A stretch of DNA of 23,540 nt, from contig JACPAV010000048.1 in NCBI GenBank assembly GCA_016180645.1, forward strand, positions 1 to 23,540, in the 5' to 3' direction. Position numbers and translations under genes: made by a program. This DNA comes from Nitrospirota bacterium (GTDB taxonomy: Bacteria > JACPQY01). Every line of letters starts with the position of its first letter. Position 1 is the first letter of the stretch. This document shows positions 5,645 to 23,425 of this stretch, one piece after another. The notes below the pieces were generated by a model. It was given only the letters and a program-made list of their open reading frames with translations. It was not told the DNA's origin and searched no databases.

Positions 5645-5705
5645 GGATAAACGGTGACAGTATACTCTATTACCTCTTATTAGAGTATACTGTCACCGTT
5701 TATCC
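5645..5705. repeat. Perfect 25-bp inverted repeat between convergent genes
   Basis: Arms at 5645-5669 and 5681-5705 are perfectly complementary over 25 bp around an 11-nt loop. The left arm begins GGATAAACGGTGACAGTATA. It starts 4 bp after the mutase stop and ends 11 bp before the FecR-gene stop on the other strand. There is no T-run on either side, so it may stop transcription as a long hairpin, but the sequence looks more like a REP/MITE-type element of the sort mobilised by Y1 (IS200-like) transposases. The AT-rich core contrasts with the GC-rich neighbours. Confidence 0.85.
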
Positions 5706-5716
5706 AGAACCGACGG

Positions 5717-7273
5717 CTACAGCAGGCGCGCCCAGAGCGGCCGCCAGGTCTCGAAGTTCTTCTGGAGACGGAGGAGGACCGAATGGCTTTCCGAAACTTT
5801 TTCCCCGGTCGACCTCTTCACGCCCTCGGCCCAGAGATCGAAGCTGACGAAGGCCGCCGCGCCTTCTACATTCACGTTCGCGCCCGAGAACGTCACACTG
5901 AAGCTTTCCAACCTGTTCCGCGCCTGCGGCAGCAGCGCTCGCAGATCATCCGAAGAGAGGCTGTTCTGATCGGGCGCCCAGTCCGACCGGACGCCCTGGA
6001 GCCGGAAATCCGATCCCGCGGAGGCCAAACATCGGCCCGGCGTGAGGGATGAGATTTCCACGCGGCAGGTGTCGAGCCACCGGAGGATCGCGGCCCTCTC
6101 CGCCTGGGGGTCTGCCTTCGACGCGCCCGACTCGTCCTGCGTCAGCTTCTGCTCCGGTCTATCGGGCCCTTTCTCCGGCTCGCCTCCCGGCGTTTCCTTC
6201 CCGGGCGCAACCGCCGGCTCCCCCGTCTTGACCGTCTCCACCTCGGCTGGGGACACTCCCTTCGTCCCAGACGTTCCGCCTGCCGCTTGCCGGTTCCCGC
6301 GCGATGGCTCCTGCGGCGCGCCTCTCGCGCCCTCCCGCGGAGCCCCGCCCGCCGGGACCTCCCCCGGTCTCTTGCGAGGCTCTCTCCCCTCACGCTTCGA
6401 TGCCTGTTCCATGCGCGTTCCCTCTCGGCGAGACAAGCGTGACTCCCGCGAAGCCCGCATCCGTTCTCTAGCCGAGGGGCGATCCCCCCGGCCGAACAGT
6501 CTTCCTCCCTCCTGACGGACATCGGGACCCCGCCGCGCCTCCCTCCATCGGTCGGCCGCACCGGGCGGCCTATCGGGGGTGGCCGGCTTGAAGTACTCGA
6601 TGCGTTCCAAGATGCCCAGCTTCTCCATCCCGGTTTCAGGGATGCTGCGAGGCTCAGGCGGACGGTCCTTTGCCACATCCACTTCCTGCATCGGGCCGAG
6701 AACAATCGGCCGGTCCGGAGCCGATCGAGACGCAACGCGAACGGAGCCCTCGAGCACGGATACCCTGGTCGAACCCCGCATGGCCTCCACCAGGAAGGAG
6801 GTCCCACGAACTCCCGCCACGGCCGTCCGAGTGGCGACCAAGAGATCGAAACCGTCGAGGAAGCGGGCCACCACCGCCAATTTGCCCTCGGCCAGATCCA
6901 TGACATACCGGCTCAGGCCCTCTTCCCGCCGCCCCGTGATCTCCAAGGTGGTGTTTTCTCCGATGCGAACATAGTTCCGTTGGCCGAGAAGGAGGTCAAC
7001 ATAGGCCCCCGGGCCCGTTTCGATGACTTCACCGTTGTACACCGGGGTTGAGAGAGAGACGTTCCGCCACTGAACCGCCTCCCGGGCCCGCACGCGAACC
7101 GGCCCGGAAACCATGAGCACGGAGTACAAGTCGGATACGTCTCGAGCCTTCAGGAAGGCCTTCTCCGAGGAACCCAGGAAACCCGTCGATCGATTCCAAA
7201 CGGAAACGACGACGATGCCGACCACCAGGCCGATCCCCAGGAGACCGAGGAGGCCGGGCACCCCTTTGCGCAT
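5717..7273 (-). CDS. Membrane-anchored FecR-domain protein with C-terminal NTF2-like domain (minus-strand module)
   Basis: 518 residues. A single N-terminal membrane segment (about 7-25, no cleavage site seen) is followed by a FecR domain (about 55-182). Its signature is VATRTAVAGVRGTSFLVE at 146-163, then VLEGSVRV. A long disordered linker (about 205-390) is rich in Arg, Glu, Pro and Gly. The C-terminal 125 residues (AILRWLDTCRVEISSLTP onward) look like a compact alpha+beta fold, possibly NTF2/SnoaL-like. The plus-strand FecR protein has the same layout. FecR domains act in the periplasm, classically in signalling, but no sigma factor or TonB receptor is nearby; the linkage here is to polysaccharide export. 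It is the last gene of the minus-strand module, 41 bp after the kinase gene. Confidence 0.85.
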   Translation of the reverse strand: MRKGVPGLLGLLGIGLVVGIVVVSVWNRSTGFLGSSEKAFLKARDVSDLYSVLMVSGPVRVRAREAVQWRNVSLSTPVYNGEVIETGPGAYVDLLLGQRNYVRIGENTTLEITGRREEGLSRYVMDLAEGKLAVVARFLDGFDLLVATRTAVAGVRGTSFLVEAMRGSTRVSVLEGSVRVASRSAPDRPIVLGPMQEVDVAKDRPPEPRSIPETGMEKLGILERIEYFKPATPDRPPGAADRWREARRGPDVRQEGGRLFGRGDRPSARERMRASRESRLSRREGTRMEQASKREGREPRKRPGEVPAGGAPREGARGAPQEPSRGNRQAAGGTSGTKGVSPAEVETVKTGEPAVAPGKETPGGEPEKGPDRPEQKLTQDESGASKADPQAERAAILRWLDTCRVEISSLTPGRCLASAGSDFRLQGVRSDWAPDQNSLSSDDLRALLPQARNRLESFSVTFSGANVNVEGAAAFVSFDLWAEGVKRSTGEKVSESHSVLLRLQKNFETWRPLWARLL

Positions 7274-7314
7274 GCGTCGCTACCAGCCGGCGGCGGGGTC
7301 TGGATTCATGACGC

Positions 7315-9864
7315 TCAAACCTCCGCGGGGTAGTAGGACCCGGTCTTCGGGTAGTACGAGAGTTTGACGCCTTCGCCCACGTTCTGCCTTGTGTGATTCA
7401 GGATGACGCCGGCGACCGGCGCGTGAGCCCGCCGAAGCAGATCGATGCCGCGAAGGAAGAGGCTCTGAGGGGTCTGGCCCGCGGCGTAGACCAGCGTAAC
7501 GAAATCCACCAACCGGCTCAGCATGAGCGTGTCGCTCACGCGGAGCAGCGGGGGAGAGTCGAAGAGGACGATATCGAATTCATTGCGGAGGTTGTCCACC
7601 AGTGTCGAAGCCGCCTCGCGCTCGAAGTGACCGTTGTAGCCCGCCAGCTCGGCTTCGCTTCGGATCCTTCCCGGCAGGTAGGAAAGATTCGGAAGCGGCG
7701 TTTGCACGATAGCCTTCTGGAACGACAGAGTGCCCTCCAACACCTCGAGCAGCCCCGGAAGGTCTTCCATGCCCAACTCCTTGTCCAGTGTGGGATGCCG
7801 CACGTTCGCGTTGACGATGAGCGTCCGACAGCCGGACTGCGCATACACGGCGCCCAAGCCCAGCGTCAGAGTGGATTTCCCTTCGCCCGAGGCGCAGCTC
7901 GCCATCAGGATGGCGCGATGCTTCTTGCCGTCCGAGGCCGAGTCGAGATTGACTTTGACCATCCTGCACAGGTCGCCCATCTCCACGCGGTGACGCCGAT
8001 CCGCGGGAGACAGTTCATCGGGCGACTTCAGGAGATCGAGGGGCCGCTGGGTCACATGTCGCACGACGCCCAGCACTTTGATCCCGGAAGCTTCGATCTC
8101 GTCGAGATGTTCCACCGCCGGGTTCAGGGCTTCCAGCGTAAAAACCAAGCCCATGAACAGCACGATGGACAGCAGAAGCACGCTCGGCAGGTCTCTCCGG
8201 GGCCGCGGCAGGACCGTCAGGCGAGCCGAGGCCGCTTCCCTGAGCACCACGATGCTGGAGGAGATGTCCGACAGGGCCAAATCCACCGCCGCAAGCTGTT
8301 TCTTGAAATTCAAATAGATCTCCTCTTTGATGTCGAGATCGTTGAGATAGAATCTTTCCTTGGATGGATCGAGTCCCAGCGCCGCAGCCTTCCGCCTCAG
8401 CTCTCCCAGTTCCTTTTCCTTGGCTTGGATGCGGCGGTCCGATTGCTCCAGACGCGTTTGCCAGGTCTTCCATTCCGGCTTGAGCGGCGCCGCAGGCATG
8501 GCTGGGGACGATGAAGCCGCCTTCCTCGCCAGCGCGAGGCCGGCCTCCACGACCTTGCCCCAATCGGCCACCACCAGCCGCTCGCCGATTTCGTCCCCAC
8601 GCCGGACCCTCAGAAGCCAGGCGCCGGCCGGAACGAGAAAACTGAACCGGCCATCGCCATCCGTCACCGCCGGCGGCCCGCCGCCGATCTCGACCTCCGC
8701 ATCCGCCACGGGTTCGCGCCGGGAGGAAACCGCGCGGAATACCTGGCCGTCTATTCGGGCCATCCGATCCGACCCCGTCGCTCCTTCCCGAAGGGCGATG
8801 CTCGCCCACTTCTCCGTCGTCGCCTCCACCTGTCGGGTCATCTTGCCGAGCTTGTATCCACTCGCCGAGACATAGACTTCGTGCGTGCCGGACGGCAGAT
8901 CGAACGCGAAGTCCCCCTTCTCATCCGTGTAGGCGACCTTCCCGGACGGACGGGTCGTCACCACGGCCCCGGCCACGCGGGGGCCTCCGAGGGCACCGGT
9001 GAACACCACACCCCTCAGAACGCCCGTCGGGCCCGACCCCTCCTCCGATAGGATCGGGGTGATCGCGCCGCCGGCCTTCTTGAGCGATTGGAGCGCCTTC
9101 ACGCTTCTTCCCAGAGAGTCCAAGAGAGGAAACCCGGGCTGGAACCTCCGGCTGAGATCGGCTCTTTCTTTCTCCAATCGGGCAATCTCGTCGTCGATCT
9201 CCTTCACCACGTCCATCCGGGCCTGCCGGAGTCCCTCCACATCCTTGCTGCCGGCCTCAATCCGTTGGACCGCCGCTTGCAGCGACCGGCCCTCTTCCAA
9301 CTGTTTCTCGTACCCTTCAATCTCGGCCATCAAGTACTCGCGCTGGCCGACCTTGCTCTGCCTTTTCTGATTCGCATCGAAAATCTGGAACGTCTGAATC
9401 AGCGCGTTCAACAACTTGACGACCAACTCCGGATCCTGGGCCCGCAGCTCGATCCTGAGAATGTTGGTTTTCCCCTTCCGCTCGACACGCAGCCCTTTTC
9501 GGGTCTCCTCGATCAGACGCTCCCGCTCGGCGGGCGGGTCGGACGGATCGACCACGCCGAGTTTTTCCAGGACCTGCCCCAAGAGGGCGTGGCTCCTGAG
9601 GAGGTCGGCCTGCGTCTCCAGCACTTCGTCCGTGGGCGTTCCCACCCCCAGGCGTCCCAACACGGCGCTGATCTTCTCGCCGGCCGGCGTTTCGACGAGG
9701 TATTGCACCTCGGCTTCAGACTCGTACTGTTTGGGCATGTACAACCAATAGACGCCGTAGAGACCGAAGGTGATGATCAACAGGAGAGGGAGCAGCTTCC
9801 AGTGCTTGGCTAGGACGTGGAGCTGACGGCGCAGCAACTCGTTGGAATCGTTTTTCGCCGCCAT
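7315..9864 (-). CDS. Wzc-like polysaccharide co-polymerase / BY-type tyrosine kinase with two inserted beta-sandwich domains
   Basis: 849 residues. Order: membrane segment (24-43), Wzz chain-length domain (44-about 160), coiled coil, insert (about 281-445), coiled coil (about 465-500), second membrane segment (about 559-580), cytoplasmic kinase domain. The insert holds two carboxypeptidase-regulatory-like units: GVLRGVVFTG...VAYTDEKGDFAFDLPSG...VYVSASGY and IDGQVFRA...VTDGDGRFSFLVPAG. Typical Wzc proteins lack these. Kinase motifs: Walker A ASGEGKST (658-665) and Walker B IVLFDSPP (765-772). Walker A' is LIVNANVRHP, where the usual DxD is NxN (Asn685, Asn687). The tail has a tyrosine cluster (837, 838, 844, 845). 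Family role: control of capsule/exopolysaccharide length and export through tail phosphorylation. It starts 4 bp after the SLBB gene stop. Confidence 0.9.
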   Translation of the reverse strand: MAAKNDSNELLRRQLHVLAKHWKLLPLLLIITFGLYGVYWLYMPKQYESEAEVQYLVETPAGEKISAVLGRLGVGTPTDEVLETQADLLRSHALLGQVLEKLGVVDPSDPPAERERLIEETRKGLRVERKGKTNILRIELRAQDPELVVKLLNALIQTFQIFDANQKRQSKVGQREYLMAEIEGYEKQLEEGRSLQAAVQRIEAGSKDVEGLRQARMDVVKEIDDEIARLEKERADLSRRFQPGFPLLDSLGRSVKALQSLKKAGGAITPILSEEGSGPTGVLRGVVFTGALGGPRVAGAVVTTRPSGKVAYTDEKGDFAFDLPSGTHEVYVSASGYKLGKMTRQVEATTEKWASIALREGATGSDRMARIDGQVFRAVSSRREPVADAEVEIGGGPPAVTDGDGRFSFLVPAGAWLLRVRRGDEIGERLVVADWGKVVEAGLALARKAASSSPAMPAAPLKPEWKTWQTRLEQSDRRIQAKEKELGELRRKAAALGLDPSKERFYLNDLDIKEEIYLNFKKQLAAVDLALSDISSSIVVLREAASARLTVLPRPRRDLPSVLLLSIVLFMGLVFTLEALNPAVEHLDEIEASGIKVLGVVRHVTQRPLDLLKSPDELSPADRRHRVEMGDLCRMVKVNLDSASDGKKHRAILMASCASGEGKSTLTLGLGAVYAQSGCRTLIVNANVRHPTLDKELGMEDLPGLLEVLEGTLSFQKAIVQTPLPNLSYLPGRIRSEAELAGYNGHFEREAASTLVDNLRNEFDIVLFDSPPLLRVSDTLMLSRLVDFVTLVYAAGQTPQSLFLRGIDLLRRAHAPVAGVILNHTRQNVGEGVKLSYYPKTGSYYPAEV

Positions 9865-9868
9865 GCCG

Positions 9869-11311
9869 CTACTGCTGAAGTATCCGCACCTGGGAGGCTA
9901 CACCGGCGCCGGCCGAGAGGGGCGTGAGAAGCCGACCGAGAAAGTCGAGCGCGTCCGACGTCGTACTCTCGGGAACGAACAAGACGTCCCCGTTGTTCAA
10001 TTCCAAATCCTGCCGGAGATCGCCCTTGCTCACCACGCGATCGAGGTTGAGCGCGATCACCTGCTGGTCCGCCGAACCATAGTGACGCACCACCTTGGTG
10101 CTGCTCAGAACGGCGCCGAATTTGGCCTGGTCCGCCAGCGCCAATGCCTGCATCGCCGTGATGCGGCCGGGCTGCCGATACAAACCCGGCCGGGTCACCA
10201 TCCCCAGCACGTACACGCCCACTTCCTGGCTGTGGGGAATGTAAAGGGTGTCGCCGGGCTCGAGCCGCGCCGAAGGCGCCGCGCCGGGCAGGAAGAGTTC
10301 CGTATTCAGATCCACCCGCAGTTCCTCGCCCGTCTTTCGAACGACCGTGGCTTCCGAGAGACTCGCGCCGATCGTCAGTCCGCCCGCTTGCGTGACCACC
10401 TCACGGACGCTCAACCAGCCTCTTGAACCCACGGGGAAGACGGCGGGTTTGGCCACGGCGCCGTGGACCCTCACCGGCCCCGGCGACCCGACGATCAGGA
10501 TGTCATCCGGCTGCACCGAAAGGTTGTATTTGAACTCCGACGTCCCGAACAACCGGCCCAGCGGGAACTGGATGCTCGTTCCCCCTCGAATGATCGACAC
10601 GTTCTGCGCCAGAGTGGCGTCATAATTCCATCCCGCCGACATCAGCACTTCCAGCAAGGTCCCCTGCCCGAGAATGGGCGTTCGGCCGGCCTTGCTCACG
10701 TCGCCCATCACCGTCACCATCCTCTGCCCGGCCTTCTTGATCGCCACGGAAATCTTGGGTTTTGCCACATACCGTCGGATGGCCCGCTCCCAATTCTCCC
10801 GAAAAACATCGAGCGTCACTCCCTCGGCCTGAATGGACGGGCCGAACGGCACCGCCACGTTGCCATCCGCAAGGACGACGAAGTCGCCGGAAAACTCCGC
10901 GTACCCGGCCACCTCCACCTCGATCACATCCTCCTTGTATAAGACGTATTCGGCGGCCCCGCGGCGAGTCGCCTTCTGAAAGGAGGAGATCTCCGCCCAC
11001 GTTGCCCCCTCCGCTCCGCTCCGGGAACGACGAACAGAACCGTCATCAGGTCCTTGCGTCGCACCGGCCAAGTCCCGGCCGGGCGCGGGGGCGGATTCGA
11101 CAGGCTGTGCCCCGGCGGTCGGGAGCGGCTGCGCCGCCAGAGGCAAGAGATCGGGCGGTTTGCGAACAGCTCCGGCACACGAGCCAAACATAACAAAGGA
11201 AGAGCACACGATCGCGAAGACGGGCGGGATCTGCAACAGTCGCCTACCTGAACATGCACAGACCTTCCGGGGAACGGGGGACGATTTTCGCCCCTCCCGC
11301 TGCGCTGACAC
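9869..11311 (-). CDS. Outer-membrane polysaccharide export protein, Wza-like, SLBB repeats (minus-strand module)
   Basis: The frame is open from ATG 11371 (500 residues), but that ATG lies inside a candidate promoter and would give a 44-residue n-region. I place the start at GTG 11311 (480 residues; ATG 11344 is another option). A hydrophobic segment ends VMFGSC, suggesting a lipoprotein with an imperfect lipobox. Then a low-complexity Pro/Ala region, a Poly_export domain (YVLYKEDVIEVEVAGY onward, about 142-212 in the long numbering), and three SLBB beta-grasp units (about 219-296, 299-377, 384-467). The last 25 residues could form the amphipathic barrel helix. Wza-type proteins form the octameric outer-membrane channel for polysaccharide. 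It is first in its operon, followed after 4 bp by the kinase. Confidence 0.88.
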   Translation of the reverse strand: MSAQREGRKSSPVPRKVCACSGRRLLQIPPVFAIVCSSFVMFGSCAGAVRKPPDLLPLAAQPLPTAGAQPVESAPAPGRDLAGATQGPDDGSVRRSRSGAEGATWAEISSFQKATRRGAAEYVLYKEDVIEVEVAGYAEFSGDFVVLADGNVAVPFGPSIQAEGVTLDVFRENWERAIRRYVAKPKISVAIKKAGQRMVTVMGDVSKAGRTPILGQGTLLEVLMSAGWNYDATLAQNVSIIRGGTSIQFPLGRLFGTSEFKYNLSVQPDDILIVGSPGPVRVHGAVAKPAVFPVGSRGWLSVREVVTQAGGLTIGASLSEATVVRKTGEELRVDLNTELFLPGAAPSARLEPGDTLYIPHSQEVGVYVLGMVTRPGLYRQPGRITAMQALALADQAKFGAVLSSTKVVRHYGSADQQVIALNLDRVVSKGDLRQDLELNNGDVLFVPESTTSDALDFLGRLLTPLSAGAGVASQVRILQQ

Positions 11312-11352
11312 TACTCGCCTATCATAACCCCTCCCTAATGCCATCCCAAGGT

Positions 11353-11381
11353 AGGGTAGGTCAACAATCATTGTTTGTCAA
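11353..11381 (-). promoter_or_regulatory. Candidate sigma70 promoter of the minus-strand export module
   Basis: On the minus strand a perfect TTGACA (11381-11376) is followed, after exactly 17 bases, by TACCCT (11358-11353), placing a start near 11346. The spacer contains the small palindrome ACAATCATTGT (11364-11374). The upstream ATG at 11371 of the SLBB frame lies inside the spacer, so if this promoter is used that ATG cannot be the start. The -10 is only a fair match. Confidence 0.5.
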
Positions 11382-11468
11382 CATCTCCACCGCAGGATCG
11401 GGCCATAGATGGTGACCGTATCGATCCATGAAGGATGGTCGTCCCAGCCGACCCGTTGTTGACCTCCT

Positions 11469-11484
11469 TGTGATCCCAATCACA
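11469..11484. promoter_or_regulatory. CRP/FNR-family binding site (TGTGA-N6-TCACA)
   Basis: TGTGATCCCAATCACA has both half-sites of the CRP consensus exactly, with the correct 6-bp gap, and is symmetric over 6-bp arms. It lies in the divergent region between the two polysaccharide modules, centred 44 bp before the plus-strand FecR start and about 130 bp before the minus-strand start point. CRP-family proteins, including the c-di-GMP-responsive Clp of Xanthomonas, control exopolysaccharide genes through this type of site. Which family member acts here is unknown. Confidence 0.65.
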
Positions 11485-11520
11485 GACATGGGATTGGAAA
11501 CATGATTCAATCCCCGGCCC

Positions 11521-13083
11521 ATGGGGGCAATAAAGGGAGCCGGATCCATTAGACGTTGGGCGACACAGGGCGTCGCCGCCCTCGCCCTTCTGGCCGGTGG
11601 GGTCTTGCTCCTCAACGGCCTCAAGTGGATCGGTCATCGTCGGGCCCAGAATCTGCTTTCGCAATACTCGCAGATCGGGCGGGAAGGCGCTCCGGCCCCC
11701 GTTCTCATCCTTAGCCATGCAGGGCCCGTAGACTTTTCCGGTCCAACCTACGATGGATGGCAAACCGTCGCGATGAGGAGCCCCCTCACGTCAGCCAATA
11801 CGGTCCGGACCGGCACTTGGGGCACCATCGACCTTGCGCTCGACCGTCACGTCGTCCTCCGGATCGCGCCGAATTCGACCGTTCAATTCGCTTCCATGGT
11901 TCGCGATCTCTCAAACCGCATCGAGCTGGTGGAGATCGCCATGAAAACGGGGCAGGTGATCAGCGTCATCGGAAACCTGAAAGACGGGGCGCGCTTCTCC
12001 ATCAAGACGCCCACGGCCACGGTGGGGGTTCGCGGGACGGTATTCATGGTCGAGTCAACTCCGGAAGGCACGATCGTATCAACCCTGAACGGGACGGTGG
12101 AAGTCACCACGCCCGCCGATCCCGGGCAGCCGCTCGATGTGGTCCCCGGGGAACGGCTTGAGGTGGCGGCCCGCCTCAGCCCCACTACGGGCCGCCGCGA
12201 GATCATGGGCCGATATACGGGTGTGCCGCCGGAGATCCGCAAACAGATGAGCCAAGCCGTGCGCGAGAACGCGTTTGCGAAACCCCGACGTCAAGGGGCT
12301 TTGATTAACGCCATCGATAAGAAGGAGGGGGCGACCGCCCGGCCTCCATCCAGCGGTCGGGACCGGATCGCTCGGGAGCGCCCCGGTTCATTGCGCGCTG
12401 AAAAGGGCCGCCGAATTCAATCGCCGCTTCGCGGAGGCGACGATCGATACAAGAAGCCCGAAAAGCAACGGTCGATGCAACGGCTTTCCGATCTTCGCCT
12501 GCAACGGCCGATGCCTGAATCACCGCTCCGAGTCACCTCGCCGGAAAAGTCGAAATCCACCCGGGAGGAGCCGGCGCCCCCCACAACCGCCGGGCCTCCC
12601 AAGGCTGCGACGCGGCCCTCCGAGCCCGCCGCGGAGGAGCCGGCGAAGGAGAAAGAACAATCGCAGGAGGATGAAGACACGGAAGATCGCCCCGTTCAGG
12701 CCGGCGCCGATACCCTCTCGGCCGAGATGGCCATTCGGGCCATTCTTGATGAATGCCGCGATGCGCTCGAACAGCTCGCGGCCGTTCCATGCCTCTCCCG
12801 CTGGACCACGCCGGGATTCACGCTGAATGTGAACGGCAAAGTGGTGCCCAACCTGTCGCGAGCCGCGGCCGAACTCTCCCGACTGATCACTTCTCCCTCC
12901 GTTTCCATGCACGTTCTGACGGTCACCGTCCGGGAGGCCACCGCCATGGCCGTCTTCACCATCGCCGTGGACGCGCGCAAGGCGCAGACGGGCGATGATG
13001 TCAGCCGACAATTCCTTGTCATCATGGAATTCGCCGGAAGCGACAAGGAGGGGTGGCTGGCCCAGTCCGCGAGCGCCATGTAA
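11521..13083 (+). CDS. Membrane-anchored FecR-domain protein with C-terminal NTF2-like domain (plus-strand module)
   Basis: 520 residues with the same architecture as the minus-strand FecR protein. It has an N-terminal membrane segment (about 13-33) and a FecR domain (about 62-195) with SIKTPTATVGVRGTVFMVES and STLNGTVEV. A long charged, Pro-rich linker (about 245-395) ends in a very acidic patch (KEKEQSQEDEDTEDRP). The C-terminal domain (AIRAILDECRDALEQLAAVP onward) matches the start of its paralogue's (AILRWLDTCRVEISS). The two are clearly diverged paralogues. The ATG at 11521 has no good ribosome site; a start just downstream cannot be excluded. It is the first gene of the plus-strand module, and a separate promoter follows it. 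I infer a periplasmic role linked to polysaccharide export; the ligand is unknown. Confidence 0.85.
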   Translation: MGAIKGAGSIRRWATQGVAALALLAGGVLLLNGLKWIGHRRAQNLLSQYSQIGREGAPAPVLILSHAGPVDFSGPTYDGWQTVAMRSPLTSANTVRTGTWGTIDLALDRHVVLRIAPNSTVQFASMVRDLSNRIELVEIAMKTGQVISVIGNLKDGARFSIKTPTATVGVRGTVFMVESTPEGTIVSTLNGTVEVTTPADPGQPLDVVPGERLEVAARLSPTTGRREIMGRYTGVPPEIRKQMSQAVRENAFAKPRRQGALINAIDKKEGATARPPSSGRDRIARERPGSLRAEKGRRIQSPLRGGDDRYKKPEKQRSMQRLSDLRLQRPMPESPLRVTSPEKSKSTREEPAPPTTAGPPKAATRPSEPAAEEPAKEKEQSQEDEDTEDRPVQAGADTLSAEMAIRAILDECRDALEQLAAVPCLSRWTTPGFTLNVNGKVVPNLSRAAAELSRLITSPSVSMHVLTVTVREATAMAVFTIAVDARKAQTGDDVSRQFLVIMEFAGSDKEGWLAQSASAM

Positions 13084-13104
13084 GCCCGTGGATCAGAGCC
13101 GTTC

Positions 13105-13133
13105 TTGACATGTGGCGTCTCATTCATCACAAT
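13105..13133 (+). promoter_or_regulatory. Sigma70-type promoter before the plus-strand SLBB gene
   Basis: A perfect -35 TTGACA (13105-13110), a 17-bp spacer and CACAAT (13128-13133, 4 of 6 to TATAAT) lie between the FecR and SLBB genes. The expected start point is near 13140, about 35 nt before the ATG and upstream of the AGGAGA ribosome site. This would let the exporter and kinase be expressed without the FecR gene. Confidence 0.6.
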
Positions 13134-13174
13134 GCCGACCAATTCGCATGGCGGTTTTGAAACAGGAGATAACC

Positions 13175-14644
13175 ATGAGTAGGAGCATCAAATCTTCTTG
13201 GAGCCTTCCACGGACGATGGGCGTTCTGGTCATCGTCGGGCAGGCCATGGCGGGATACGCCCGCGCGGCCGACAAGACCGCCCCGCCCGCTGCCGAGGAG
13301 CCGGTTGCCCTCTCCGCTCCCAAAACAACCGAGAGTCGTCGATCGGACGACCTCCAGGAAGGAGGAAGTGCCGCGAGAGGGCAGGAGCCCGGAGCGGCCG
13401 ACCTCCAGGAAGGAGGAAGTGCCGCGAGAGGGCACCCTGAAGGAATCGATGGAATCGCGCAGGGTACTTCGCAGCCTCCCGGAGCGGCCGACCCCTTCAA
13501 AATTCTAAGAGATCAAATCCGCGCTTTTGAAACGGCTCCGCAGGTCAGCGACTACAAGTTTCTCAAGGGCGATCTCGTCGAAGTCAGAGTGCTCGGCTAC
13601 GGCGAACTGTCCAAAACCTACACGGTGTCCGAGGATGGCACACTCGTGGTCGGCCTCGGCGATCCCGTCATGGCCACGGGCAAGACGGCCGGACAGGTGA
13701 AGGAGGTTCTGGAGCGCGAACTTGGTCGGTTTCTTCAGAAACCCAAGGTTTCCGTCTTCCTCGCCAAGCCGGGCGAGCGACGCGTCTTCGTCATCGGCGA
13801 CCTCCCGAGGGCCGGCCAGGTGGCGCTCGTCGGCCAAGGCACCCTTCTGGAAACCCTCACACAGGCCGGCTGGAAATACGACCCTTTCGGGGGCCATCAG
13901 GCGCGGCTCGTCCGGCAGGACCGTACACTCACCGTAGACGTGGCCGCCATCATGCGGGCGGGATCCACCGACCTCAATATCCGTTTGAAGCCGGACGACA
14001 TCGTGATTCTCAACTCCCCCGATCCCGTGGTGGTCATCGGGGAGGTCCGTAAGCCGGACCGCTACCCCCTCGGCGAACGCGCATCCATCACGGTTCGCGA
14101 AGTGATCGCCCGCAGCCAGGGCATCACCGAAAAAGCCGATCTGACCTCCGCCAAGATCATTCACAAGACCGGCACGGAGGAGCGGCTCGACCTCAATCGA
14201 TACCTCTTTCCCCAGCCAGGCGACGCCTCGTCGGATGTGGTTCTTCAGGGGGGTGACACCCTGTACGTCCCACAAGGCGGCGAGATCGGCGTCTTCGTGC
14301 TCGGAATGGTCGGTCGACCGGGCTACTACCGCCAGGCCACGGGGCTTACGGTGCTCCAGGCGCTCGCCCTCGGCGATGAGCCCCAGTTCGGAGCGAAGCT
14401 CTCCCACGCGCGCCTCGTGAAGGGCTATTCGAGCGGGAATCCCCGAGTGGTCAGGGTCAATCTCGATCACCTGGTGTACAAGGGGGACATGAGCCAAAAC
14501 CTGGCGATGGAAAACGGCGACGTGCTGTACATCCCCGAGACCACCACGTCCGACGTCCTGGACTTCCTCGGCCGCCTGCTTTCCCCGCTCAATCTTGGAT
14601 TCACGGCCGGCGTGGCCGCCGCGACCGCCATCGGCGCGAAATAG
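13175..14644 (+). CDS. Outer-membrane polysaccharide export protein, Wza-like, SLBB repeats (plus-strand module)
   Basis: 489 residues from the ATG at 13175, chosen because AGGAGA lies 6 bp upstream and the protein then begins with a normal signal peptide (cleavage likely after Ala31, AGYARA/ADK). There is no lipobox Cys, unlike its paralogue. Next comes a low-complexity linker with a 17-residue tandem repeat (DLQEGGSAARG, at 59-69 and 76-86). A Poly_export domain (DYKFLKGDLVEVRVLGYGEL, from about 126) and three SLBB units (about 203-283, 286-368, 371-455) follow. The end LDFLGRLLSPLNLGF and a small-residue tail match the paralogue's end. Expected role: outer-membrane channel for polysaccharide, docking on the BY-kinase encoded 3 bp downstream. 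Confidence 0.92.
   Translation: MSRSIKSSWSLPRTMGVLVIVGQAMAGYARAADKTAPPAAEEPVALSAPKTTESRRSDDLQEGGSAARGQEPGAADLQEGGSAARGHPEGIDGIAQGTSQPPGAADPFKILRDQIRAFETAPQVSDYKFLKGDLVEVRVLGYGELSKTYTVSEDGTLVVGLGDPVMATGKTAGQVKEVLERELGRFLQKPKVSVFLAKPGERRVFVIGDLPRAGQVALVGQGTLLETLTQAGWKYDPFGGHQARLVRQDRTLTVDVAAIMRAGSTDLNIRLKPDDIVILNSPDPVVVIGEVRKPDRYPLGERASITVREVIARSQGITEKADLTSAKIIHKTGTEERLDLNRYLFPQPGDASSDVVLQGGDTLYVPQGGEIGVFVLGMVGRPGYYRQATGLTVLQALALGDEPQFGAKLSHARLVKGYSSGNPRVVRVNLDHLVYKGDMSQNLAMENGDVLYIPETTTSDVLDFLGRLLSPLNLGFTAGVAAATAIGAK
13348..13434 (+). repeat. In-frame 51-bp tandem duplication in the SLBB gene
   Basis: A 36-bp sequence starting CGACCTCCAGGAAGGAGG occurs identically at 13348-13383 and 13399-13434 (period 51 bp, 17 codons). 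The phrase GGAGCGGCCGACC preceding the second copy appears again near 13482, so there may once have been a third unit. The repeat codes for a Gly/Ala/Glu-rich linker and contains an internal AAGGAGG. Confidence 0.85.
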
Positions 14645-14647
14645 TCC

Positions 14648-16735
14648 ATGGAACCCAACCGCTCGTCCGATCTCGATACGCCGGAAATGTTCATGCGACT
14701 CTCGGGCATCCTGGCCAAGCACGTCAAGCTCATGGTCGTCACCACGCTGCTGATTGCCATCGGGGTCGCCGGCGCCTATGTGTCCATACCGAAGATCTAC
14801 GAAGCGACGGTGCAAATCCAGTACCTCACGGAAACGCCCGAAGAGGAGGCCTCCCAGGTATTCGAGCGGATCGGAAGGCTGCTCGGCTCCACGGGAGAAC
14901 AGGCGCTCGACACACAGATACAGATCATTACCAGCCAGGCCATCCTTAAGGAGAGCCTGGAGAAGCTCGCCGTCATCCCCGCCGGAGCCAGGCCGGAAAC
15001 GGCCCAAGGTATCGTGCAGAGATTCCAGCGCGACGTCACGGCCCGAAAAATCGGCAAGACGAATATTTTCGAGCTCGTCGTGCGGGCTCCCAAACCCGAA
15101 TTCGCGGTTCAGGTCGCCACGACCATCACGGACGTGTACCAATTGAACGATCTGCGGACGCGTCAGCGCACCGACCAGTCCCTCCGCCGATACCTGCTCG
15201 AACAGATCGACAGCCTCGAAAAGAAGATCCTCGAGCAGAAGACGTTGATGGATTCGTTCGGCGACACGGAGTCGCTCCAAGGAGAACTGCGAAACCTCAT
15301 TCAGCAGAAGGAGCAGACGCTGAAGTCGCTTGCCGAGGAGAAGAAGAACCTCGAAATCGAGCGCCGGGCGCTCCTCGCCCGCTACACTCGCCGGCACCCC
15401 AAGGTCATGGAAATCGACGCGACGCTCGCCTACGTGAACCGCATCCTGGGCGGCAAAACGGTGGGAGATCCGGCTTCCCAACTCATCAGCGCGCGCCCGG
15501 AGGTGTTGGACCGCTTCGTCAAACTTCAGAGCCGATACCAGCTTACGATGCGCGACCTGGCCCACACCCAACGCAAGATCGAAGACGGCAAGAAACGCGC
15601 CTTGGAGGGAGGCTCTCCATACGAAGACAAGGAATTTCTTCAGCGTGAACTGAGTCTCAATCAAGAAATCTACGGGAACATGAAGCGCCGCCTGTCGCAG
15701 GTCGAACTCACGCTGGGCAACAATTCGGAAAACGTCATTCTACTCCAGGAACCTACCCTGCCCCGCCGCCCGGTGAAACCGGATCCGAAGCGGTTCCTCA
15801 TGCTCGGGCTCCTGCTCGTCGTTTTGCTTCCAATCAGCTTCACGATGATCGCGGAAGCCATGGATTCTTCGGTCGGGACGATACCCGACCTTGAACGGGT
15901 TGCAAGCGTGGGCGTTCTCGGAGGCGTGCCCTTTGTCCGCAATTTCGCCATGCCCCACACGGTCGAACCCGCGAACGGAAACGGCCACGCTCCCCTCGAT
16001 CCGGCTTGGGCCGGATTCCAGGAGGCCTTCAGGACGATCCGCACCAAGATCGATCTCCAAAATGGCAGGAAACAGGGACGCACCTTCCTGGTTACCAGTA
16101 CTCAGCCTCAGGAGGGGAAGAGCGTCGTGTCCTGTAGCATTGCCCGGGCATTTGCCGAGGCCGGCCTTTCAGTGCTCCTCATCGACTGCAATCTGCGGCA
16201 TCCCTGCATCAACCGCTATTTGGACCTGCCCCTCGAGCCGGGTATTCTTCCCGCCCTTCAGAACGGTGAGGACTGGCGGCGAGGCGTTCTCCGCATGAAA
16301 AACCCCTCCCGTTTCCACATTCTCCCCGCCGGAGGGGCCATTCGGAATCCCTTGCCCCTGATTGAATCCGCCCGATTCGGCCAGATCCTTGAGGAGGTGC
16401 GGTCAAGCTTCGACGTGGTCATCATGGACAGCCCGCCGGCCCACATGGTGTCCGACGCGGTGGCCATTTCCAGGCAGACCGATGGCGTGATTGTCGTCTA
16501 CTCCTCCGGAGAAACGGCGCGCACCGCCTTCAAGCGCAATCTCGATCAATTCAAACTCGCCAAGGTCCCCCTTCTCGGTCTGGTCATGAATCACAAGAAA
16601 CCCATCAGACTGGCCATGTACCCCCAGTACGCCTACTACGCCTACGGCTACCCCACGGATAAGCCTCACAAGGGGAAGAGAACAGAACGCGTCGGGCACA
16701 GGCGATCGTCCAGCCAAGCGGCATCCCTCCACTAG
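14648..16735 (+). CDS. Wzc-like polysaccharide co-polymerase / BY-type tyrosine kinase (plus-strand module)
   Basis: 695 residues with the standard layout. Membrane segment (about 28-48), Wzz domain, long coiled-coil region (about 185-245 and 300-350), the PxxP-type TLPRRPVKPDPKR before the second membrane segment (about 383-402), then the cytoplasmic kinase domain. Walker A STQPQEGKS (484-492); Walker A' LLIDCNLRHP with Asp513 kept but the second Asp replaced by Asn515; Walker B VVIMDSPP (Asp594). The tyrosine cluster YPQYAYYAYGYP (658-669) has six tyrosines. A basic Ser-rich tail of about 25 residues follows it. It lacks the beta-sandwich insert of its paralogue. Role in the family: setting chain length and gating Wza-dependent export by autophosphorylation. 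Confidence 0.93.
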   Translation: MEPNRSSDLDTPEMFMRLSGILAKHVKLMVVTTLLIAIGVAGAYVSIPKIYEATVQIQYLTETPEEEASQVFERIGRLLGSTGEQALDTQIQIITSQAILKESLEKLAVIPAGARPETAQGIVQRFQRDVTARKIGKTNIFELVVRAPKPEFAVQVATTITDVYQLNDLRTRQRTDQSLRRYLLEQIDSLEKKILEQKTLMDSFGDTESLQGELRNLIQQKEQTLKSLAEEKKNLEIERRALLARYTRRHPKVMEIDATLAYVNRILGGKTVGDPASQLISARPEVLDRFVKLQSRYQLTMRDLAHTQRKIEDGKKRALEGGSPYEDKEFLQRELSLNQEIYGNMKRRLSQVELTLGNNSENVILLQEPTLPRRPVKPDPKRFLMLGLLLVVLLPISFTMIAEAMDSSVGTIPDLERVASVGVLGGVPFVRNFAMPHTVEPANGNGHAPLDPAWAGFQEAFRTIRTKIDLQNGRKQGRTFLVTSTQPQEGKSVVSCSIARAFAEAGLSVLLIDCNLRHPCINRYLDLPLEPGILPALQNGEDWRRGVLRMKNPSRFHILPAGGAIRNPLPLIESARFGQILEEVRSSFDVVIMDSPPAHMVSDAVAISRQTDGVIVVYSSGETARTAFKRNLDQFKLAKVPLLGLVMNHKKPIRLAMYPQYAYYAYGYPTDKPHKGKRTERVGHRRSSSQAASLH

Positions 16736-21938: not shown

Positions 21939-23135
21939 TTACGCCACTCGCCTGACGTTTTTCTCGACACACGACACGCAAGGGGGCTGGACCGGATCGG
22001 CCAGAATGATCGCATGCAGAGGCCAGCCATCCTGTCGAACCTGAGACAGGATTTGTCCCTGAAAATAGGAAGCAATGACCACAACCGTGTTGCTTGGCGA
22101 GAACTCCTTCAGTTGTGAAGGAGCGAGAACCGGCTTTCCCTCAATCTGCTGCTGCCACTTGCCTTTGTCGTTGTCCACAAACGCCTCAATAACCGCCCCA
22201 CCGTCTTGAATCGCCCGGTGGGTCTGGCGACCGGCTTCACCTGCCCCAAAGATGAGAAGTCTCTGCGGGGACTTCGACCTGATTTCGTCCATCAAGGTCC
22301 ATGGAGTGGCAGGAGGGAAAACCGGTCGATGACGTCCTCCCCGGCCGCCGTGAAACTCGAAATAGGCAAATGTCGCAGGCGGTTCCCCCCGAATCTCTTC
22401 ATGCGGGTCATGGGGCGCCGTCAGTTCCTTGAACCATTCAGAAGATCCGGACATTTCCCATTCGTGTCTCGCGGAATGAAGTTCAATCTGATTCCGGCTG
22501 GCAAAGTCATATAGGGGAAGAATCTCGGAAAACAGCGACGCGAAGGGCCCGAGACAGTAGCACCGCTCGCCCGAGTTCCCGTTCATGAACATTCCGGCGC
22601 GCCCCGGCGAATATCGCAGGTCCACCAAATCATCAACAACGACCATGGACTCCCGTTCGGCCAGCACCGGGAAGATTCGGGAGATCAGGTTCTCGGCCAG
22701 CGCGACCCCATGAACATCCCAGAACAGAAAAACGCGTCGGGACCCATCCATGACTTTGCGCCAGTCGCTCTTGGATACATCTTCAACACGCGTTTCCAGT
22801 CGGTCGAACCAGCTCGCGGGGCGAATCGGCTGTAGCAGTGGCAGAGTCTTCTTGAACCAATCCCTGCTCCAGCAAAGACTGACCACGCGCGCACCCGGGA
22901 GCCGGTTGGCCGCCTCGGTAAGAACGCAAGTGGAATTCCCGTGACCGCGGCCAAGCTCAAGAATCAGGTCCGGCTGAAAATCCAGACAGAGAGAATAGAG
23001 GATGAACCAGTCCGGTAGATTGAGATTGTCCTTGACGTTGATCTTGTTCCACATAACAGAAAATGCATCCTTAACCGTGAAAAGATCCCTTCGCTTTTCG
23101 CGGAGAGAACGAAGAAGGGGCGCATCAACCGTCAA
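21939..23135 (-). CDS. Class I SAM methyltransferase-like domain fused to a Rossmann nucleotide-binding domain
   Basis: Open from ATG 23225 (428 residues), but the first 30 residues of that frame look non-coding (Arg/Lys-rich). I favour TTG 23135, which overlaps the TGA of the upstream small ORF (398 residues); no ribosome site supports either. Numbering is from the long form. The N-terminal half has a methyltransferase-type motif I DLILELGRGHGNST (86-99), then VFLFWDVHG (165-173) and VVVDDLVDLRYSPG (195-208). The C-terminal third has LLIFGAGEAGRQTHRAIQDG (323-342) with GxGxxG and an acidic VDND at 350-353, as in PglD/CoA-binding-type Rossmann domains. The tail has two Cys (PPCVSC). The exact reaction is unknown; sugar or surface-glycan modification is a guess from the domain pair. 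Confidence 0.75.
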   Translation of the reverse strand: MTVDAPLLRSLREKRRDLFTVKDAFSVMWNKINVKDNLNLPDWFILYSLCLDFQPDLILELGRGHGNSTCVLTEAANRLPGARVVSLCWSRDWFKKTLPLLQPIRPASWFDRLETRVEDVSKSDWRKVMDGSRRVFLFWDVHGVALAENLISRIFPVLAERESMVVVDDLVDLRYSPGRAGMFMNGNSGERCYCLGPFASLFSEILPLYDFASRNQIELHSARHEWEMSGSSEWFKELTAPHDPHEEIRGEPPATFAYFEFHGGRGGRHRPVFPPATPWTLMDEIRSKSPQRLLIFGAGEAGRQTHRAIQDGGAVIEAFVDNDKGKWQQQIEGKPVLAPSQLKEFSPSNTVVVIASYFQGQILSQVRQDGWPLHAIILADPVQPPCVSCVEKNVRRVA

Positions 23136-23425
23136 GGCAGCGGTCGGAAGGGCGGATACGACTCGAACGCGTCTTGAAGCTCTCTGATTTGTTTTTCCAC
23201 CCCGGGGAGCTCTTGTTTTCGGCATTCGCGCGGGAAACGGTACCAGTGAATCCCTAGCGGGTCAATGTTGGTATGTTTTGGAAGCGTCGACGAGTCGAGC
23301 CGGACCTCTTGAAGAGTCAGCTCTTTCGGATAAGGCGGTCGCCGTCCCGAAGGGGTCAAGTCTTGAATTGATACAACTTCTCCATCAACGATCCTAAGAA
23401 GTATCAAGTCAAGACTTGACCCCAT
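23132..23425 (-). CDS. Small hypothetical protein whose 5' end is a palindromic repeat
   Basis: 97 residues. The ATG and about the first 25 codons (MGSSLDLILLRIVDGEVVS) are read through the palindromic element. The rest (GIHWYRFPRECRKQE, then VEKQIRELQDAFESYPPF) reads more like protein than the competing frame. Its TGA overlaps a TTG of the methyltransferase frame (TTGA), as in coupled genes. It may be the remnant of a gene cut by the repeat, or a spurious ORF. I recognise no family. Confidence 0.35.
   Translation of the reverse strand: MGSSLDLILLRIVDGEVVSIQDLTPSGRRPPYPKELTLQEVRLDSSTLPKHTNIDPLGIHWYRFPRECRKQELPGVEKQIRELQDAFESYPPFRPLP
23352..23423. repeat. Palindromic MITE/REP-like element with 23-bp terminal inverted repeats
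   Basis: GGGGTCAAGTCTTGA with eight more bases (23352-23374) is repeated in inverted form at 23401-23423, 22 of 23 positions matching, around a 26-bp core. Flush ends and small size suggest a non-autonomous mobile repeat; such GGGGTCAAG ends are typical of palindromes linked with IS200-like Y1 transposases, though none is encoded here. It supplies the stop of one minus-strand frame and the start of the next. Confidence 0.8.

Follow-up and report, generated by a model that had tools for sequence, protein, structure and literature searches.

Organization of the locus

The window, the whole stretch of DNA analysed here (23,540 bp), is the complete contig C48 of genome G000, an assembly of 4.72 Mb in 65 contigs with 97% completeness; genome-wide statements on G000 are based on family searches. 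According to open reading frames and Pfam domains, it carries two three-gene modules: module A on the minus strand, with genes for an OPX/SLBB protein, a Wzc-like PCP/kinase and a FecR-domain protein, and module B on the plus strand, with FecR, OPX and Wzc genes. The modules face away from one another across a gap of 149 bp between the start codons, and the following features were located:

5645..5705, no strand: hairpin with 28-bp arms at the outer edge of module A, apparently a member of a dispersed REP-like family
5717..7273, minus strand: FecR-A, with N-terminal TM helix, FecR domain (PF04773), long low-confidence linker and C-terminal alpha+beta domain
7315..9864, minus strand: WzcA, Wzz and Wzc-type ATPase/kinase (PCP; Wzz and AAA_31 matches), with two inserted CarboxypepD_reg (PF13620) stretches
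9869..11371, minus strand: SLBB-A, OPX protein (Wza-like) with Poly_export and three SLBB stretches, no Wza_C match
11321..11349, minus strand: promoter-like hexamers TTGGGA-17-TATGAT facing module A, a consensus match only
11372..11520, no strand: divergent gap between the modules, from ORF positions
11469..11484, no strand: exact palindrome TGTGA-N6-TCACA with CRP/FNR-type half-sites, 37 bp before FecR-B
11521..13083, plus strand: FecR-B, layout as FecR-A (PF04773)
13112..14644, plus strand: SLBB-B, OPX protein with Poly_export and SLBB, no Wza_C match
14648..16735, plus strand: WzcB, Wzz and kinase (Wzz and AAA_31 matches), C-terminal Tyr cluster, no insert

Sequence identity between the modules supports paralogy for all three gene pairs, with 45% across 375 aa for the OPX proteins (E 1e-105), 26-30% for the Wzc proteins (E 5e-41) and 24% for the FecR proteins (E 1e-19). 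Among the NCBIfam models, WzcB scored above the TIGR01007 cut-off and the remaining module proteins below theirs. An earlier note on this DNA had described the twofold, divergent occurrence of the three gene types, and we find all six genes where it placed them; the gene order differs between the modules, as it had also claimed, the order FecR-SLBB-Wzc of module B being a cyclic permutation of SLBB-Wzc-FecR in module A. Likewise, no glycosyltransferase, Wzx or Wzy was detected among the window genes examined, one of which, an uncharacterised gene at 21939-23225(-), had no Pfam match.

Ancestry of the modules

The sole family-level relative of G000 in the comparison was G001, which belongs to another genus, while the remaining genomes share only the domain with G000. 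G001 carries both OPX types, each in a module with the same gene order as in the window, namely OPX-Wzc-FecR for module A on C56 (L019 5667-10941) and FecR-OPX-Wzc for module B (C75:8929-13785). Between the two genomes, the OPX proteins share 54% (A-A) and 66% (B-B) identity and the Wzc proteins 39% and 51%, respectively, with 30% for the FecR proteins of either pair. In an OPX tree with eight OPX proteins of other families, taken from the best of 386 genomes, the A proteins of both genera formed one group (100/99), the B proteins a second (100/99), and A and B were joined (100/99) with the eight others apart. The Wzc tree showed the same topology, with A and B as sister groups, and the FecR tree was concordant with weaker values (A 80/81, B 96/96). 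As A and B are sister groups that each contain both genera, the duplication preceded the split of the genera of G000 and G001, and the common origin assumed in the earlier note is borne out by the trees. The modules were thus duplicated as a block, which within the sampled genomes is confined to this lineage.

Outside the A and B groups, the next OPX protein in the 386 genomes reached at most 36% identity, and OPX matches from a contig scan for named relatives only 26-28%. In two outside genomes (G210 and G069), OPX and Wzc genes are followed by a weak FecR-like gene (below cut-off), which corresponds to the order of module A, and G210 likewise carries its two OPX homologues on different contigs. 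The six-gene block, which the earlier note had suggested searching for in relatives, has its counterpart in the sister genus insofar as both modules occur there in the same gene orders; they are unlinked, however, and the block was not seen in relatives beyond the family among the 386 genomes. That both modules were independently acquired from outside the lineage might be suggested by their different positions in the two genera, as could be expected of mobile genes, but among the 386 genomes searched A has its closest relative in B and vice versa, and the GC and GC3 of the module genes match those of their flanks, which makes such an origin very improbable.

Genomic positions and origin of the back-to-back layout

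In G001, the modules lie on two contigs, away from the contig ends and flanked by unrelated genes. Module A is bordered there by Lon–DUF362 on one side and GuaB on the other, module B by a NUDIX/IF-2B gene and RmlD. Both sites are empty in G000, where the Lon-GuaB gap spans 207 bp without a gene and the convergent NUDIX/IF-2B and RmlD genes have a 10-bp overlap and no module between them; at both sites the flanks are collinear with G001 on either side. The series GroEL–small gene–LipB–MCM is in turn collinear in G000 and G001 through the end of MCM, which is the exact start of module A in the window, and BamA, which follows module B in the window, is located elsewhere in G001 without other window genes nearby. 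Taken together, the separate loci in G001 and the empty sites in G000 indicate that the back-to-back layout and the shared control region are lineage-specific, so that the divergent neighbourhood of A and B appears to have arisen, or to have been kept, only in the genus of G000. The two genomes of the family are compatible with relocation in either direction.

Apart from the hairpin at 5645-5705, no flanking direct or inverted repeats suggesting a mobile unit were found at the modules. The hairpin arms are 96% complementary (RNA fold z -10.5), and its core ACGGTGACAGTATACT has 48 matches in G000 at no more than one mismatch, compared to one control match, many of them in pairs that face each other at a distance of about 33 bp; no match was obtained in G001. 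This element looks like a dispersed element of the REP/MITE type. It is conceivable that the adjacency is accidental and that two modules once located apart, as they are in G001, were joined by repeat-mediated rearrangement with no functional link; the two positions that are cleanly empty in G000 and the dispersed hairpin at the outer edge of module A would agree with this. However, two moves into one spot would be needed, set against two moves to two spots if an ancestral pair was split in G001, and no hairpin core match was found at the empty sites or at the edge of module B. Overall, we regard an accidental adjacency as unlikely.

Control region

The gap at 11372-11520 contains the exact palindrome TGTGATCCCAATCACA (11469-11484). 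Exact TGTGA-N6-TCACA sites occur three times in 458 kb of the two genomes versus about 0.2 expected, for a motif that was spotted by eye before the test, and one-mismatch sites as a class were not enriched in the same 458 kb. A one-mismatch site is located upstream of FecR-B in G001, and the upstream region of G001 module A has no exact palindrome. The sole promoter-like site on the SLBB-A strand (11349-11321) falls inside the annotated SLBB-A ORF, from which it follows that the start is probably further in and the gap possibly larger than 149 bp; the 5' end of SLBB-A is uncertain and its true start may be downstream of 11371.

The earlier note had proposed that both modules are jointly controlled from one region. 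As a general feature this does not hold, since the modules are unlinked in G001 with unrelated flanks and both G001 sites are empty in G000, and joint control of A and B is hence not a conserved property. For the genus of G000, a shared regulator is possible, with the CRP-type site in the gap as candidate, and this one site may govern at least module B. A stronger version would see the six genes as one jointly regulated unit for one polymer, forming a hetero-complex or redundant copies, with the gap as a true bidirectional control region. The short distance of about 149 bp between the start codons, the exact CRP-type palindrome within it and the promoter-like site for module A would suit such a unit, but in G001 each module has its own flanks, the region upstream of module A is devoid of the exact palindrome and that of module B has only the one-mismatch site, and the Wzc proteins, at only 26-30% identity, are set apart by the domain inserted into one of them, leaving this version distinctly unlikely.

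CRP-type sites were also noted at other loci. A stand-alone FecR-domain protein of G000 (C7:30234-31121; L036 8235-9122) has a one-mismatch palindrome about 160 bp upstream, and G001:C64 (L067 11980-12025) has two palindromes 30 bp apart, one exact and one with a mismatch, near the starts of bamA and a divergent 1037-aa ORF. Upstream of G001 module A (L019 11000-11030) there is a perfect inverted repeat, GTGTCAAG-N10-CTTGACAC, absent from the window gap by eye, which possibly belongs to a different regulator.

OPX proteins

Both window OPX proteins have Poly_export (PF02563) and SLBB matches above the gathering score, and the OPX Class 1 mark Wza_C (PF18412) did not match even at E 10, although weak matches are lost to the HMMER filters and the last strand is followed by a 33-residue hydrophobic tail. 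The Poly_export-SLBB architecture fits the Class 3 pattern, and no outer-membrane beta-barrel partner for SLBB-A or SLBB-B was identified next to the modules: no dedicated barrel adjoins them, and BamA beside module B is a general assembly factor that in G001 is found away from module B. By eye, SLBB-A is a possible lipoprotein (…MFGSC|AG) and SLBB-B has a Sec signal-like N terminus.

In addition, G000 encodes a third OPX protein (C2:101899-104415; L020 6900-9416) in which Poly_export and two SLBB domains stand behind FG-GAP repeats and OmpA; its neighbours showed no Wzc-like gene. Our assumption of only two OPX proteins in G000 was accordingly dropped. The two separate export channels suggested in the earlier note correspond to two modules that share an origin and also occur in the sister genus, and the third OPX protein makes the count of two incomplete.

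A tRNA-Arg(ccg) called by ARAGORN at 10831-10918(-), within the SLBB-A coding sequence, is probably a false positive. In SLBB-B, the N-terminal linker includes a near-perfect 43-bp direct repeat with a spacing of 51 (13341-13434), encoding repeats of DLQEGGSAARG. In four genomes from three families (L059, L062, L063 and L064), an OPX gene follows smc at the second position downstream, the intervening gene encoding a small Pfam-less protein; in the window, bamA and trpS follow module B, and scpA and scpB come after them.

Wzc proteins and the insert in WzcA

WzcA and WzcB both contain Wzz, Walker A and B motifs and a Tyr cluster, which places them by sequence in the PCP-2a/BY-kinase (Wzc) family. 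In Walker A', both Asp are missing in WzcA (which reads NAN) and one in WzcB, and several outgroup kinases are likewise altered. We considered WzcA as a kinase with lost activity and rejected this, because Walker A' is without Asp in both genera but also in outgroup kinases.

The two CarboxypepD_reg stretches of WzcA cover approximately aa 283-440. G001 WzcA has one carboxypeptidase-regulatory-like domain, and WzcB has none in either genus. For the A-type periplasmic part, no Wzc match outside the family covered the insert at E 1e-12 among the 386 genomes. In the structure model, the insert is placed between an outgoing helix (145-265) and a returning helix (463-536), with low confidence; the models of WzcA (mean pLDDT 49) and FecR-A (47.5) are too weak for fold search and were used for element order only. 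Considering the published contact between the PCP apex and the OPX base (PMC9603273), a role of the insert in docking or length is plausible by analogy; our literature search, with most subscription journals outside it, returned nothing on such an insert.

FecR-domain proteins

The FecR-A model begins with a TM helix and a beta-rich FecR domain (pLDDT mostly 65-80); a long disordered stretch then leads to a low-confidence C-terminal alpha+beta domain, which is possibly NTF2/SnoaL-like given a sub-threshold SnoaL_4 match in the C-terminal domain of G001 FecR-A. Only PF04773 matched the FecR proteins, with a poor match to the FecR equivalog model, and no FecI sigma gene was present among the window genes examined. 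As the window is without a FecI sigma factor, the FecI-FecR signalling model does not apply. Literature joining FecR with OPX/Wzc systems was not found in the same kind of search, which left out most subscription journals.

Polymer synthesis genes

The earlier note placed the synthesis genes elsewhere in the genome, and sugar-transferase and Wzy loci were indeed recovered on other contigs of G000. Polyprenyl-phosphate sugar transferases (PF02397) are encoded at C7:55807 and C39:17176, the latter beside two GT4 genes, and Wzy_C proteins on C3, C4, C19 and C47. The GT-rich loci on C47 and C19 have their own Wzz-like or Wzc-like proteins, and the C19 locus has several genes in common with G001:C37. 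None of the glycan loci on C19, C47 and C39 includes a module OPX, and some glycan loci may be served by the third OPX protein (C2) and a third Wzc-like kinase (C19) instead of A or B.

Comparison with known export systems

The best solved relatives of the window proteins are E. coli Wza and Wzc of the group 1 capsule, with which the modules share the pair of OPX protein and PCP/tyrosine kinase. They differ in the missing Wza_C match, the added FecR-domain partner, the insert in WzcA, and the lack of Wzb and glycosyltransferases in the cluster. In Myxococcus xanthus, the EPS, BPS and MASC systems provide several export sets in one genome, with Class 3 (D1D2) OPX proteins and a separate beta-barrel (PMC9603273, PMC9601211). 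Similarly, G000 has several sets, OPX proteins without Wza_C and synthesis genes partly apart from the export genes; in contrast, no 18-stranded barrel partner lies beside the window modules, and the window OPX proteins are of greater length and include as many as three SLBB stretches. For the OPX part, the best-scoring NCBIfam matches are TIGR03027 and TIGR03018 of the XrtA/PEP-CTERM locus, yet all scores are below the curated cut-offs (121 and 137 bits for TIGR03027 versus 180) and the window contains no exosortase. With FecI-FecR sensors, the FecR proteins share the PF04773 domain behind a single N-terminal TM helix, but they have an extra C-terminal domain, and neither a FecI sigma gene nor a TonB receptor is in the window. 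Overall, this kind of export module is already known, and the insert in WzcA makes it a variant.

Proposed history and function

We favour, with a probability of roughly 60%, that a three-gene module was duplicated before the two genera split and diverged into an insert-bearing A and a plain B form, probably for two polymers or two conditions. The ancestor would have been a Wzx/Wzy-type export module comprising an OPX protein, a Wzc-type co-polymerase/kinase and a periplasmic FecR-domain partner anchored in the membrane, copied whole ahead of the divergence of the family's two known genera. A head-to-tail tandem intermediate with subsequent loss would explain why the gene order is cyclically permuted. 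The A-type Wzc would then have acquired carboxypeptidase-regulatory-like (transthyretin-like) domains where the periplasmic helical hairpin turns, with B staying plain. Each Wzc ring would meet its own OPX protein in the periplasm and pass on a polymer made by enzymes encoded elsewhere, and the FecR protein is proposed as a structural or sensory periplasmic partner and not as a FecI anti-sigma factor. Of this picture, the gene content, orthology, sister-group trees, empty sites and remote synthesis genes are observed, and we infer the polymer specialisation and the roles of FecR, insert and regulation. More far-reaching, and in our opinion doubtful, is a new coupling in module A, in which the transthyretin-like domains at the Wzc apex would dock the OPX ring or extend the channel, one FecR protein per module would act as periplasmic scaffold or sensor, and two polymers would be exported.

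The presence of a FecR-domain protein in both modules of both genera points to a third conserved component of export machines of this kind. As a dated paralogous module pair in a poorly known lineage, A and B allow the specialisation of Wzc and OPX proteins to be studied by comparison, and the WzcA insert offers a natural test of how an inner-membrane co-polymerase meets an outer-membrane channel, a point reported as a gap in work on Class 3 OPX systems (PMC9603273).
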